From NCBI GenBank assembly GCA_030427805.1, contig JAUICP010000001.1, forward strand, positions 124,001-188,000: a stretch of DNA of 64,000 nt, written 5' to 3'. Origin of the DNA: Bdellovibrionia bacterium (lineage in GTDB: Bacteria; Bdellovibrionota; Bdellovibrionia; Bdellovibrionales; JAGQZY01). Shown here piece after piece: positions 56,870 to 63,289 of this stretch (position 1 is its first letter; each line of letters begins with the position of its first letter). The position numbers and the translations under genes are program-made. The notes under the pieces are model-generated. The model ran no database searches. It saw only the letters and a program-made list of their open reading frames with translations, and was not told where the DNA came from.

Positions 56870-57517
56870 TTGTCAGATCATTGGGGAGTGAAATTGAAGA
56901 GAACAACTGTCATCATTATTTTACTGTTCATGCAACTTGGCTGCTCGATAGGGTTTGCAATGAGTTGTCGATCTTCGGAACTGACACTTGAAGAGTCTCA
57001 AGTCCATTTAGGTGCAGAAAAATACTCGCCATTTTCAACCATGAAAGCTACGAGCTTTATTGGAGGTATTGCCGGAGTCATTGCTCTCGGCAGTGAAGAA
57101 GCGAATCGGGGAGAGAGTCAAATACCTGATTGGGTGACTGGAACTGCAGTTTTGTGGTGGTCGGCATCGGCCCTCATAATGATGTCTGACACCTGTCCTG
57201 TAAAACTTCATCCCGACGCCTCCGCTGCCAAAGTCACCAGGTCTGAAGCGGTCACTGAACGACTTAAAGGCTTAAGACAGTCCTTCTACGCCCTTCACCT
57301 GTTTAACTCCATTCCACTGCTTTTGGCGACACCCTATTCAAACAGAAGCGATAGGGCCCCTATTTTACTAGGTGGAATTCTTTTGCCTGCAGTTGTTGAT
57401 GTTATTTATCGAAACCTGTTCGCTAGAGACCAAGTTTCTCCTTGGACCTTTCAGCCGGGCATTGTCATGAATGACAGAGGGCCGACAGGAGTTTTAGCCC
57501 TTTCATACACTTGGTAA
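56870..57517 (+). CDS. Probable lipoprotein or membrane protein of unknown function
   Basis: A 215-residue protein. A hydrophobic leader (about residues 11-25) ends with QLGC, a likely lipobox. Further hydrophobic stretches occur at about 60-76, 88-102 and 165-180, so it may span a membrane or form a small barrel. The last residues (VLALSYTW) end with an aromatic residue, as in outer-membrane proteins. The start could also be the GTG at 56888. No family recognised. It is convergent with the GspE-like gene. Confidence 0.55.
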   Translation: MSDHWGVKLKRTTVIIILLFMQLGCSIGFAMSCRSSELTLEESQVHLGAEKYSPFSTMKATSFIGGIAGVIALGSEEANRGESQIPDWVTGTAVLWWSASALIMMSDTCPVKLHPDASAAKVTRSEAVTERLKGLRQSFYALHLFNSIPLLLATPYSNRSDRAPILLGGILLPAVVDVIYRNLFARDQVSPWTFQPGIVMNDRGPTGVLALSYTW

Positions 57518-57539
57518 AGTGTTTAAGAGATTTTACCAA
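57511..57539. terminator. Weak hairpin between convergent genes
   Basis: TTGGTAAA and TTTACCAA form an 8-bp stem around 13 bases, covering both stop codons at the junction of the convergent genes. T runs are short, so termination strength is doubtful. Confidence 0.35.
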
Positions 57540-60166
57540 ACAATGCCTTTTAAGTGCTTTTCAACTTGGTCAATTGTTGAAAGACCATTCAGTGAAATTT
57601 GGTAGCCATTGATCCGCATATTACTGAAACCTTCTTTTAAAAGAATTTCGTGAATCTCAGCGCTTGGTGTATTTTTCATCAGAGCTTCTCTAAGGAGTGG
57701 AGTTTTCTTCCAATACTCGAGAAGGGGTACGCGCCCTTTGTAGCCAGTTTGCGAGCAATCATGACACGTTCGTGCTTCCCAAAGTACACTACTCTTAAGT
57801 TCTTCAATCACTCCGGAAACCACGCGCTTTTGCGAAGCAGTCATGGCTCGTGTTCTTCGGCAAGAGTTACACAGCCTGGGGATTAGTCTTTGTGCCATAA
57901 CACCTAAGAGCTGACTTGCTACCAAGCTATCACTGACACCCCAATTTCGAAGGTTATCAATTAGATCTAGTGAATGGGCAGAAAACGTAGTCGCAATTAC
58001 GAGTGAGCCCTTTTGTGCGAGATTAAAGACTTCTTTGGCCACGTCCTCAGAATCAACATCCTCAATAAAGATAACATCTGACTCTTGAAGGGCCGCCATT
58101 TTAAGAGCTTCTTTTTGACTCGGCCCTTTATCCCCTCGAAGTGAGACCTGGTTAATTCCGCTGACCTCTAGACTGACAGGATTTTCGATAGTGGAAATAT
58201 TGAGTTTTAGAGAATTGATTTCTTCTAAACAAGAGTAGACAGTTCCTTTTCGGCCACTCCGCTCGGGGCCCGTTATAAAAAAGACACCTTGTTTACTGCG
58301 CAAAATTTCTTTTAAAAATTTGATAGTATTAGTGTCAGGAATTAACATATTCAGAGGAATCAGACTCGTCGTTGCCGAGGCCCAATTAATCACAACCTTC
58401 TCACCATGCACAGTTGGAAGCACTTTAACCTCTCCTAGGCGAGGTTCAGAGCCAACAGTTTTATCAATACGTCCCTGCTGTATTTGCTGGGTGTTTTGTA
58501 CGTCGAGTTTAGCGGACACCTTAATTCGATTAATCAAACGAGAGCCGATTTCTGGATAGATTTGATCATATTCCCACATTTCACCATCAATTCTAAATCG
58601 AATCATATAACGATCTTCAAGTGGTTCAATGTGTACGGACGCCGCCTTTCTCGCCAAACTTTGACTGAGTATTTCGTCAAGCAGGTGTCTATTATATCTT
58701 CTTTGGCCGGCACCATCCGAAGACTCTTCTGTCTTCTTATTTTTGAGTTCTTCTAAAATTTCAAGAAAGCGAGCTCTGGGTATTGCAAATACATCAGAAT
58801 TAAAATCTGGAAGGTATCGACCCACGATCTCGTTAATGTCTTTATTATTCAATGGATTAACGACACCTACCCATAAATTTTGACCTTCCTTTTGAAAAGG
58901 TAAAACTTGGTATTTTTCGATAGCACTAAGGGGCATGAGGGTCGATGTCACAACTAAGTGTTGCGATATATCTATGTTCTTATATCTGATAGATTGGTTT
59001 TCACTGAGATACTGTAAGCGTCTCGCAATGGATTGAGCTAAGGAAATAGAAAATTGTGGGAACTTTAATAAGCCATTGACGACGTCAGCAGGGACAGCGA
59101 TGACCCGAGAGTCTTCCGTAGCCCTTGCAACATGAATATGGGCTCTATCTGTGAGTAAGGTGACTTCACCGAGAGTATCTCCGGGTTCAGCAAAATAGAT
59201 AGTCGATAGAACATCAGACTCGATGGTTCGCGACACATCGACTCGACCCGATTCAACGATATAGAGCATTTCGACTTTAGTGTTTGGAACAAAAAGGGTT
59301 TCACCGGCATTAAGTACAATTTCGGATGAATGCTTTTTGATCATATTCATTTGTTTGTCGTTAAGATTTTCAAGAATAGTGCATCGATTTTTGAAATCAG
59401 CGAGATCAAGCTTCTCATCGAGCGGTCGAACTTTAGGACCAGACTCTTCGTCATCAACGATGAAACCATCTTTAGCAAGGATTTCGTTTATAACGGCACT
59501 TCTGATTGAGAATATATTTACCGTACTATTCGGGTGCGCTTGTTTCACAATGTCAATCACGGTTTGGTCAAAGGGATCTTCCATGCCGACAATGACGGTT
59601 CGATCACTCGAAGGCAGGGCTACAAAAGCCTTTTCAGCCATAATATCTTTGTGGATTTTATCTGATAAAGGGTAATTCTTCTTAAGCATGTCGCTCAACT
59701 GATGAATACAACCGTGGTCCTTTATGAATTTAAAAGAACGGTGGGACATATTCTTGAGAAGTGTATTCGCTATAGCCTGAGATGACGTCAGAAGCCTTAG
59801 AAAGTCTTCGCTACTCAATTCAAGTAAAGTTGAATCCTGAAGAGCAAAACAGGATGTTGTATGAGCTGAACCGACAAGGGAGCTGAGTTCAGAAAAGTGT
59901 TCACCTGAATTGTAAACCGCAACTCTTTGAGGACGATTGATGATTTTACTAGTTTTTATAACCTCTACCGAACCAGATGACAGAAAGAATACAGAGTCCC
60001 CAGGTTCATTCTCAACAAAGAGGGGCTCTCCTTTTTTGACGGAAACCTCTTTAACACATTTAGTGATTTCATCGACTATCTCATCATCTACTTCATTGAG
60101 GAGATTGCTGTTAGCCAGTAAAATCTTCTTGTACTCGAAATCATTGTTTAATTCTTCAGCTGCCAT
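57533..60166 (-). CDS. GspE/PilB-like protein with two cyclic-nucleotide-binding-like domains and a degenerate ATPase site
   Basis: An 877-residue protein. Order: cNBD-like domain (about 20-140); MshEN/T2SSE-N-like segment (about 165-232, with MEDPFD); second cNBD-like domain (about 262-390, GDTLGEVTLL); second MshEN-like segment (about 400-472, VVNPLNNKDINEIV); and a T2SSE secretion ATPase domain (about 490-830). The Zn-binding Cys pairs remain (CNSC 766-769, CHDC 801-804). The P-loop reads GPERSGRKGT, where GPTGSGKTT is expected, so Arg639 replaces the catalytic Lys. The Asp box reads IENPV and the His box lacks its His. In both cNBDs I do not see the Arg that binds cyclic phosphate. It may be a regulatory pseudo-ATPase of a type IV pilus or type II secretion system. 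Confidence 0.8.
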   Translation of the reverse strand: MAAEELNNDFEYKKILLANSNLLNEVDDEIVDEITKCVKEVSVKKGEPLFVENEPGDSVFFLSSGSVEVIKTSKIINRPQRVAVYNSGEHFSELSSLVGSAHTTSCFALQDSTLLELSSEDFLRLLTSSQAIANTLLKNMSHRSFKFIKDHGCIHQLSDMLKKNYPLSDKIHKDIMAEKAFVALPSSDRTVIVGMEDPFDQTVIDIVKQAHPNSTVNIFSIRSAVINEILAKDGFIVDDEESGPKVRPLDEKLDLADFKNRCTILENLNDKQMNMIKKHSSEIVLNAGETLFVPNTKVEMLYIVESGRVDVSRTIESDVLSTIYFAEPGDTLGEVTLLTDRAHIHVARATEDSRVIAVPADVVNGLLKFPQFSISLAQSIARRLQYLSENQSIRYKNIDISQHLVVTSTLMPLSAIEKYQVLPFQKEGQNLWVGVVNPLNNKDINEIVGRYLPDFNSDVFAIPRARFLEILEELKNKKTEESSDGAGQRRYNRHLLDEILSQSLARKAASVHIEPLEDRYMIRFRIDGEMWEYDQIYPEIGSRLINRIKVSAKLDVQNTQQIQQGRIDKTVGSEPRLGEVKVLPTVHGEKVVINWASATTSLIPLNMLIPDTNTIKFLKEILRSKQGVFFITGPERSGRKGTVYSCLEEINSLKLNISTIENPVSLEVSGINQVSLRGDKGPSQKEALKMAALQESDVIFIEDVDSEDVAKEVFNLAQKGSLVIATTFSAHSLDLIDNLRNWGVSDSLVASQLLGVMAQRLIPRLCNSCRRTRAMTASQKRVVSGVIEELKSSVLWEARTCHDCSQTGYKGRVPLLEYWKKTPLLREALMKNTPSAEIHEILLKEGFSNMRINGYQISLNGLSTIDQVEKHLKGIVW

Positions 60167-60236: not shown

Positions 60237-60617
60237 TTATTGGGAGGCTTTACCTTGGTAGGGCGTGCAACCTATAGAATAGGTCGTTGCACCCCTTGTA
60301 ACTGCCAGTAAAACAAGACCTTTGTCGCTACCTTTTGAAATTGTATTTGTCTGAGTCTTTTTGTCAGCAGCCATTAGAGTTAAGAGGCCATGATTATTCT
60401 GAGGCACTTCGCGGAGTAAGCTGATTTTTAGTGAATCAAATTGGTAAAGATCAGCTGATGCAATATCTAATTTTTGCTTGAAGCGAATGAATCTTTTTTC
60501 GAGCTTCTTTTGAACAGAACTTCGATTGACGAGGCCCGAGCAAACAAATTCGTTGTTAGACGCTAATACAGTCTGTGAAACAAATAGAGTTAATAATGTG
60601 AGTACAATTACTTTCAT
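60237..60617 (-). CDS. Small secreted protein of unknown function
   Basis: The ATG at 60617 has GGAGAG four bases upstream; a longer frame begins six codons earlier without that support. The 126-residue product has a signal peptide (about 1-19, ending VLA). The mature part has two cysteines (EFVCSGLV near the start, SIGCTPYQ near the end) that could pair, and it looks beta-rich. No family recognised. It is divergent from the sigma-factor operon, sharing 232 bases with an operator-like palindrome. Confidence 0.7.
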   Translation of the reverse strand: MKVIVLTLLTLFVSQTVLASNNEFVCSGLVNRSSVQKKLEKRFIRFKQKLDIASADLYQFDSLKISLLREVPQNNHGLLTLMAADKKTQTNTISKGSDKGLVLLAVTRGATTYSIGCTPYQGKASQ

Positions 60618-60703
60618 ATCGCTCTCCTCAAGCACTCTTCAGACTTAGTCGGTGCCTCAAATAGGTGCAAGGGATCAAATTAAAAATGTAGAGTGGTTAA
60701 AAT

Positions 60704-61743: not shown

Positions 61744-62301
61744 ATGGATAAAAATGATGATCGCTGCATGGAAAAAATCGCGGAAGGTTCGCAAACAGCA
61801 TTCCGCGAATTATTTGAAAAGTACTCTGGTAGTTTATTGGGATATTGCCAGCGATTATTATCCAACCAAAGCTTGGCCGAAGAAATAACCCAGGAGATTT
61901 GGATGAAAGTTATTAAATTAGCTCCAAATTATAAACCTGAAGGACATTTTAAAGCTTGGCTTTTCACAATGGCGCGCAACTCTTGTTTTAACCAGCTGAG
62001 AGCGCAAAAGAATTTTAATAAATATACTGAAAGTGTTAAAGCTGAATCAATATCAGCTACAGAAGAAGAAACATTAGAACAATTTTTTGAAAGTAAAGAA
62101 ACAATGGAATCCCTGAAGAAGGCGGTAGATCAATTACCAGACAGTCAAAGAGCGGCAATCGTATTGTGGCTCGGTGATGAAATGGACTATCAGCAGATCT
62201 CCGAGGAGCTCGATTTATCGCTCGCGGCCACAAAATCTTTACTTTTCAGAGCAAAGAAATCAATTGAAGCGATAGTGGGGACTGGAGGCTCAAATGGATA
62301 A
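61744..62301 (+). CDS. ECF-type RNA polymerase sigma factor
   Basis: A 185-residue sigma-70 family factor with region 2 (FRELFEKYSGSLLGYCQRLL, EEITQEIWMKVIKLA, FKAWLFTMARNSCFNQLR) and region 4 (QLPDSQRAAIVLWLGDEMDYQQISEELDLSLAATKSLLFRAKK). Regions 1.1 and 3 are missing, as is typical of ECF factors. It directs polymerase to a special promoter set, probably for envelope functions given its neighbours. Its stop overlaps the next gene by 8 bases, the usual arrangement with an anti-sigma factor. Confidence 0.92.
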   Translation: MDKNDDRCMEKIAEGSQTAFRELFEKYSGSLLGYCQRLLSNQSLAEEITQEIWMKVIKLAPNYKPEGHFKAWLFTMARNSCFNQLRAQKNFNKYTESVKAESISATEEETLEQFFESKETMESLKKAVDQLPDSQRAAIVLWLGDEMDYQQISEELDLSLAATKSLLFRAKKSIEAIVGTGGSNG

Positions 62302-62662: not shown

Positions 62663-62841
62663 GTGATAAAGATAGAGACAATAAGAAAGCTTTTGTTCCC
62701 TCGAAAGCAATGCTGAAGAACCTGGATTTGTTGATGAATTTAGACGTGGTTGAGGATGCTGAAAATTGGGATCTCTATGATAACGTCGATTCAAATGAAT
62801 TGATCTCTGCAGATGTAGAGTTAGGTGGTGAAGATGAATAA
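62659..62841 (+). CDS. Small acidic protein
   Basis: A 60-residue protein starting at the ATG that overlaps the stop of the upstream gene. No signal peptide or membrane helix. Residues about 19-36 (LKNLDLLMNLDVVEDAEN) resemble the C-terminus of the upstream membrane protein, and the tail is strongly acidic (about 43-60). It might bind the basic repeat protein encoded next. Existence is supported by tight overlaps on both sides. Confidence 0.65.
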   Translation: MSDKDRDNKKAFVPSKAMLKNLDLLMNLDVVEDAENWDLYDNVDSNELISADVELGGEDE

Positions 62842-63289
62842 ATCAATGAATAGGAGAGACTTCTTTAAATCAAGTTTAGCTCTATCCTTATTGAGTTTAA
62901 GCGGCTTAAAAGAGTCTAATGCCCAGTCGTCCAACGATGCTCTAGAGCGATTTAAATCACTGTCACCTGAGCAACAAAGGGTTCTTCAAGAGCGCTGGGA
63001 GAAATTGAAGTCAATGGATCCTGAGAAGCGCAAAAAATTAATGAAGAATTACAAGCGTTTTAAATCACTTCCTGCCGAACAAAGAAACCGCATTAAAAGA
63101 GGATTAAAGCGTTGGAAATCTCTATCACCAGAGAGAAGAAATAATATTCGTCAGCGCTTTCAAAGATGGAGGAGTATGTCTCCAGAAAGGCGGCAAGTGA
63201 TTCGCCAGCGCTTTCAAAGGTGGCGTACTCTGACGCCCGCTCAAAGAGCGCGAATTAGAAGGAGAATAAGGCAACGTCGCGGTGAATAG
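62834..63289 (+). CDS. Basic 18-residue-repeat protein (DUF3106-like) with a twin-arginine signal
   Basis: Starting at ATG 62834, 151 residues. The N-terminus MNKSMNRRDFFKSSLALSLL has a Tat-type motif (RRDFFK), followed by a hydrophobic stretch. The mature part has six tandem 18-residue repeats, for example KSLSPERRNNIRQRFQRW, of the SPE-x-R type seen in DUF3106. The repeats become more arginine-rich towards the C-terminus. From memory, DUF3106 proteins often lie next to an ECF sigma factor and a small membrane protein in proteobacteria, so the operon fits. The function of the family is unknown to me. Its tatBC exporter is encoded at 33637-34877. Confidence 0.82.
   Translation: MNKSMNRRDFFKSSLALSLLSLSGLKESNAQSSNDALERFKSLSPEQQRVLQERWEKLKSMDPEKRKKLMKNYKRFKSLPAEQRNRIKRGLKRWKSLSPERRNNIRQRFQRWRSMSPERRQVIRQRFQRWRTLTPAQRARIRRRIRQRRGE

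Follow-up and report, generated by a model that had tools for sequence, protein, structure and literature searches.

The gene at 57533-60166 on the minus strand of the window (the whole 64,000-nucleotide stretch of Bdellovibrionia DNA analyzed here) raised the question of what a relative of the motor ATPases PilB and GspE is for once its catalytic site has been dismantled, and whether such a loss reflects decay or a state maintained by selection. The gene was found to be one unbroken frame with no internal stops, and its product was divided as follows:

57533..60166, minus strand: cNBD-containing PilB/GspE-subfamily pseudo-ATPase, 877 aa (by ORF, Pfam and tree)
59732..60166, minus strand: cNBD 1, residues 1-145 (PF00027 at 41-128), E93 kept, phosphate Arg replaced by H102
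59417..59731, minus strand: first N1/'MshEN' second-half subdomain, residues 146-250, without the c-di-GMP motif
58982..59416, minus strand: cNBD 2, residues 251-395, E334 kept, phosphate Arg replaced by H343
58727..58981, minus strand: second N1/'MshEN' second-half subdomain, residues 396-480 (Pfam 398-475)
57536..58726, minus strand: T2SSE motor region, N2 plus C-terminal ATPase fold, residues 481-877 (Pfam 494-869)

Pfam matched cNMP_binding twice (E 2e-32), MshEN twice (E 1.5e-11) and T2SSE at residues 494-869 (E 6e-60, with 203 bits against a curated cut-off of 24.9). PilB was the best match in the PDB by sequence (E 5e-58). The AlphaFold2 model had a pLDDT of 79.6 and a pTM of 0.69, and a Foldseek search with the modelled motor domain placed Geobacter PilB (5tsh/5tsg) on top with a TM of 0.83-0.85. 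The profile, the zinc cysteines and the predicted fold assign the protein to the PilB/GspE branch of the T2SSE superfamily. It scored below the NCBIfam equivalog cut-offs of both PilB (TIGR02538, 276 of 675.65 bits) and GspE (TIGR02533, 242.6 of 630.25 bits). With PilB and GspE (T4aP assembly and T2SS ATPases; PF00437) it shares the second half of N1, N2, the RecA-like C-terminal domain and the zinc site; it differs in having cNBDs, present twice, instead of the helical bundle.

The earlier note had described two cNBD-MshEN pairs followed by T2SSE. That order was borne out by Pfam, but each 'MshEN' part proved to cover no more than the domain's second half. In the PilB of the same genome PF05157 spans residues 67-154, i.e. 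the part after the helical bundle, and the profile covers only the half-domain that follows the c-di-GMP-binding bundle. The bundle itself comprises 53 residues with RLGxx(L/V/I) repeats (PMC5013675). Like the MshEN domains of MshE and PilB, our protein contains the PF05157 half, in two copies; unlike them it lacks the 53-residue bundle. A scan of the protein with a relaxed form of the published motif (two 24-residue RLGxx motifs; PMC5013675) gave 0 matches, and since the scan also gave 0 in PilB and GspE of the same genome, the absence of the bundle rests mainly on the missing segment. Because a cNBD precedes each N1 half, the layout is best given as [cNBD + N1 second half] twice plus the motor, and the cNBD is best read as occupying the place of PilB's c-di-GMP helical bundle. 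A role as a c-di-GMP receptor through MshEN was rejected, the binding half being missing.

Aligned to PKA/CRP-type domains, both cNBDs resemble those of CRP/FNR and PKA in fold and in the retained cassette Glu, and differ from them in carrying His at the position of the phosphate Arg. The absence of this phosphate-contacting Arg had been pointed out before and holds for both domains (H102 and H343), as a family-wide trait that is not peculiar to this copy: most relatives have Lys, His, Thr or other residues there, which makes cAMP unlikely as the ligand of the family. A canonical cAMP sensor was rejected for lack of the same Arg.

We then compared the motor region with the active site described for Geobacter PilB, which consists of R271 and R286 (contacting the neighbour's nucleotide and the Asp box), T327 and the P-loop, E357 (Mg), E395 (catalytic), T411, H413 and H420 (PMC5424180). 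This part of the alignment has no gaps, and adding 308 to the Geobacter numbers gives E579, N594, E635, R639/K640, S665, D703, K719, S721 and F728 in our protein. All ten of the described active-site residues (10/10) were replaced, at positions that were invariant (one of them 52/53) in 53 intact relatives, with Ser or Thr as the residue after the P-loop Lys. The altered motifs and the zinc site lie at:

58385..58432, minus strand: region 579-594, both arginine fingers lost (E579 = R271, N594 = R286 of Geobacter PilB)
58235..58270, minus strand: degenerate Walker A GPERSGRKGTVY, residues 633-644
58172..58192, minus strand: degenerate Asp box TIENPVS, residues 659-665, Mg-binding Glu replaced by S665
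58049..58087, minus strand: degenerate Walker B QESDVIFIEDVDS, residues 694-706, catalytic Glu replaced by D703
57977..58012, minus strand: degenerate His box KGSLVIATTFSA, residues 719-730, both His lost
57755..57871, minus strand: tetra-cysteine zinc site C766-x2-C769 ... C801-x2-C804, kept

PilB and GspE typically carry a tetra-cysteine zinc motif, which PilT lacks. The four cysteines C766/C769/C801/C804, which the earlier note had called retained, are indeed invariant across the alignment, and its reading of the P-loop (Lys to Arg, R639 in GPERSGRKGTVY) and of the lost His box (both histidines replaced, by S721 and F728) was equally correct. The Asp-to-Asn change that it had listed in the Asp box is present here (N662) but is a weak sign of inactivity, because the sister species has Asp and an otherwise intact paralogue in the same genome (L004) has Asn; as proof of inactivity it was rejected. 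The losses went beyond that first list and included both arginine fingers (E579/N594), the Mg-binding Glu of the Asp box (S665), the catalytic Glu (D703) and the substitutions T635E, T640K and T719K. At motor positions conserved to at least 90%, the protein kept 13 of 30 in the catalytic motifs versus 40 of 60 elsewhere (Fisher p 0.04), while intact family members kept 26-30 of 30 and 53-59 of 60-61, respectively. The contrast is moderate because the long branch altered other sites too. The pore position still has an acidic residue, D708, where Geobacter PilB has E400. The protein very probably hydrolyses no ATP.

Lost catalytic residues and a very long stem branch could also mark a decaying pseudogene that is still open by chance. 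The gene was compared with its counterpart in the sister species, a MAG. The dead form was found in these two species only, so the constraint described here rests on one species pair. The proteins were 97% identical at a dS of 0.68, and dN/dS was 0.025 for the whole protein, 0.026 for the motor domain, 0.011 for residues 620-740 and 0.006-0.045 for the remaining domains, as compared to 0.030 for GspE and no amino-acid changes in PilB. The dS of 0.68 was well above that of most neighbouring genes, GspE and PilB (0.31-0.42). Across the four catalytic motifs (52 codons) we counted 21 synonymous changes and 1 non-synonymous change, the latter being N662 here against the normal Asp-box Asp in the sister. 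The P-loop arginines that replaced Gly and Lys differed only synonymously (R636 CGG/CGA, R639 CGA/AGA). A sequencing artefact was rejected, the second genome having the same residues amid many synonymous differences. The dN/dS, the 21:1 codon pattern at the altered motifs and the full-length frame in both species led us to reject the pseudogene, which we regard as wildly improbable. The codon comparison indicates that the altered catalytic site is under purifying selection and is maintained rather than eroding. Together with the TM of the motor to PilB and the full replacement of the site, these changes support the previous suggestion that selection kept the fold while catalysis was lost.

We searched 369 Bdellovibrionota genomes, many of them incomplete. 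The subfamily occurred in 12, namely two of the protein's own genus (the window genome and the sister) and 10 others. The architecture, or contig-cut parts of it, was found in the same order in G041, G053, G115, G136, G116, G112 and G125 and elsewhere in the phylum in G170, G201 and G214, with a one-cNBD version in G367; G125 and G112 are cut by contig ends, and G116 lacks the second N1 by Pfam. In all relatives outside the genus the P-loop is an intact GPTGSGK(S/T), and the catalytic Glu and both Arg fingers are present. So is the His box, except that one of its His is Gln in G136. In the tree the cNBD-PilB-like subfamily formed one clade (98/81, with a core of 12 at 100/99), and the protein and its sister were nested within the intact cNBD clade; their common stem measures 2.88 substitutions per site and their own tip branches 0.02 and 0.003. 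Nesting within the cNBD family was recovered when the catalytic columns were left out. By its cNBD-N1-cNBD-N1-T2SSE order and its position in this single clade, the protein is assigned to the subfamily.

These results support the earlier view of the protein in part. As a general protein type the pseudo-ATPase is not supported, because Walker A/B, the His box and the Arg fingers are all intact in orthologues that share this domain layout and come from further families of the bacterial order or from other parts of the phylum; the earlier note had itself named orthologues with intact Walker A/B as counting against its reading, and for the family they do. Since the sites in the 10 other genomes are intact, the architecture defines an apparently active PilB-like subfamily that one genus turned into a pseudo-ATPase, and on the tree the dead site is a derived state of that genus. 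The simplest history would run from an active ancestor through a burst of change to strong constraint. No subfamily gene was found in three sampled genomes of other genera from the protein's own family (G002-G004), and a scan of genome contigs with the single protein returned the sister species only. Searching the phylum with a profile of the dead site brought up no additional member in the loci that were read; as the profile was derived from the known cases, this speaks only weakly for a true absence.

In this 4.5-Mb genome the window is part of contig C6, and both the T2SS-type cluster with GspE and a pilB-pilT-pilC-type cluster lie on contig C11. The gene thus stands apart from pil and gsp genes, as had been noted. 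The intact PilB, GspE and PilT of the T2SS/T4P clusters are candidate targets in the same genome, which also encodes two 410-aa PilC/GspF-type platforms. We found no gene neighbourhood shared among orthologues, so there was no clue to a partner, and no pil or gsp genes beside subfamily genes in the genomes with readable context. One upstream gene was kept in the sister species with a dN/dS of 0.04 and is a possible operon partner:

60237..60635, minus strand: 132-aa exported-looking protein without a Pfam match, directly upstream of the pseudo-ATPase gene across a 70-bp gap

Directly downstream of the pseudo-ATPase the sister carries an additional pair of minus-strand genes whose products look exported (266 and 209 aa; L073:11045-12478); in the window genome this site (57517-57533) is a gap of 15 bp. 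Further along the window, the product of a plus-strand gene at 62825-63289 begins with a Tat-signal-like stretch and continues with repeated R/K-rich DUF3106 units; the gene lies near a sigma-factor-like gene at 61744-62301. In G201, the gene directly upstream on the same strand (L092:3604-4959) codes for an HD-domain response regulator, a possible second-messenger link.

The replaced active site, the missing pil/gsp neighbourhood and the scores under both equivalog cut-offs set the protein apart from PilB and GspE. It extends the PilB/GspE superfamily and is not a new kind of system. We favor, with a probability of about 0.6, a catalytically dead ring of the PilB/GspE type that descends from an active PilB-like ATPase with sensors and that putatively blocks, parks or scaffolds a T4P or T2SS motor. 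Because all known catalytic residues were replaced and the replacements were kept by selection, it is probably a regulator or adaptor, putatively of a pilus or secretion machine, and the capping or tuning of such a motor proposed previously is plausible. The protein would assemble through its N2 and C-terminal domains, either as its own hexamer or as subunits beside active PilB or GspE, and would dock onto a PilC/GspF platform or the active motor but not turn it. Once docked it would block, park or scaffold the active motor, and its four N-terminal modules, two cNBDs each paired with an N1 subdomain, would decide whether docking occurs. In V. cholerae, inactivating the Walker sites of PilT leaves it able to support PilU-driven retraction, and PilU cannot act when PilT is absent (PMC6762196, PMC13142100). 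Our protein may resemble this pair in that a ring of the family serves as an obligatory partner without hydrolysis of its own (PMC6762196, PMC13142100); PilT and PilU are naturally intact, PilT-type and without zinc site or sensors, whereas here the loss is natural and the protein is PilB-type.

The lack of pil or gsp genes beside any readable locus, the sporadic occurrence of the subfamily among the Bdellovibrionota genomes and the HD-domain response regulator upstream in L092 would also fit a protein that has left the pilus field, with the motor fold as an oligomerisation scaffold and the cNBD/N1 modules signalling elsewhere, in no contact with T4P or T2SS. We consider this unlikely, since the motor domain is constrained about like the rest (0.026 vs 0.006-0.045), D708 and the zinc site are kept, and the relatives retain the full motor site.

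We also found other dead motors in the group. In one genome of another genus in the order, a PilT lying between intact PilB and PilC (L021:2646-3713, i.e. G008:C24:17105-18172; also L094 and L132:8106-9173) has the motifs GPTRSGRSTT, ENPV, FLGD and ATCF, and shares with our protein the changes Gly636 to Arg, Lys639 to Arg, Glu703 to Asp and His728 to Phe. Our protein scored 73.6 bits to this pseudo-PilT versus 40-52 to the intact PilT-type proteins of its own genome, while an intact family member showed the reverse, with 75.9 bits to the pseudo-PilT versus 110-114 to intact PilT-type proteins. In the tree without catalytic columns each of the two dead proteins fell in its own subfamily, so the two dead states arose independently; recombination or a common origin was rejected on the same tree. 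The other pilB-linked PilT loci that were retrieved had a normal P-loop wherever it was readable. A CpaF/TadA-like 356-aa protein without a P-loop (VSSNDEVTRQV) is encoded at L012 (G000:C7:138148-138768) and in the sister (L154); with a dN/dS of 0.009 between the two species, it is a second constrained pseudo-motor ATPase in the genus.

That PilT acquired the same two arginines independently suggests that the RSGR arrangement is useful and not merely broken. Along with the retention of G633, G638 and E661 next to the two arginines now in the P-loop, this agrees with a sensor in which the RSGR P-loop binds a nucleotide or other phosphate ligand without hydrolysis and its occupancy switches the ring. 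The loss of the Arg fingers, the Mg-binding Glu and both His, and the Lys in place of Ser/Thr after the P-loop Lys, speak against such binding, and we hold it to be distinctly improbable next to the dead ring acting on a motor. On a wider view, and tentatively, Bdellovibrionia may have repeatedly made non-hydrolysing rings (PilB-like, CpaF-like and PilT), with the shared residues reflecting a selected locked conformation. If true, pseudo-motor rings would be a new class of regulators, some of them under sensor domains that replace the c-di-GMP module. The same substitutions in an independent PilT suggest which residues give a stable dead site.

Neither the cNBD-MshEN-T2SSE order nor a natural pseudo-ATPase of the PilB/GspE family was found in a search of full-text literature that covered mainly open papers. 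In most bacteria it is an open question what turns pilus extension and secretion motors on and off. A dead PilB relative that is kept by selection and carries sensors, together with relatives that keep the motor, makes a before-and-after pair for testing gating by a dead ring, and the same pair allows testing what the sensors read.
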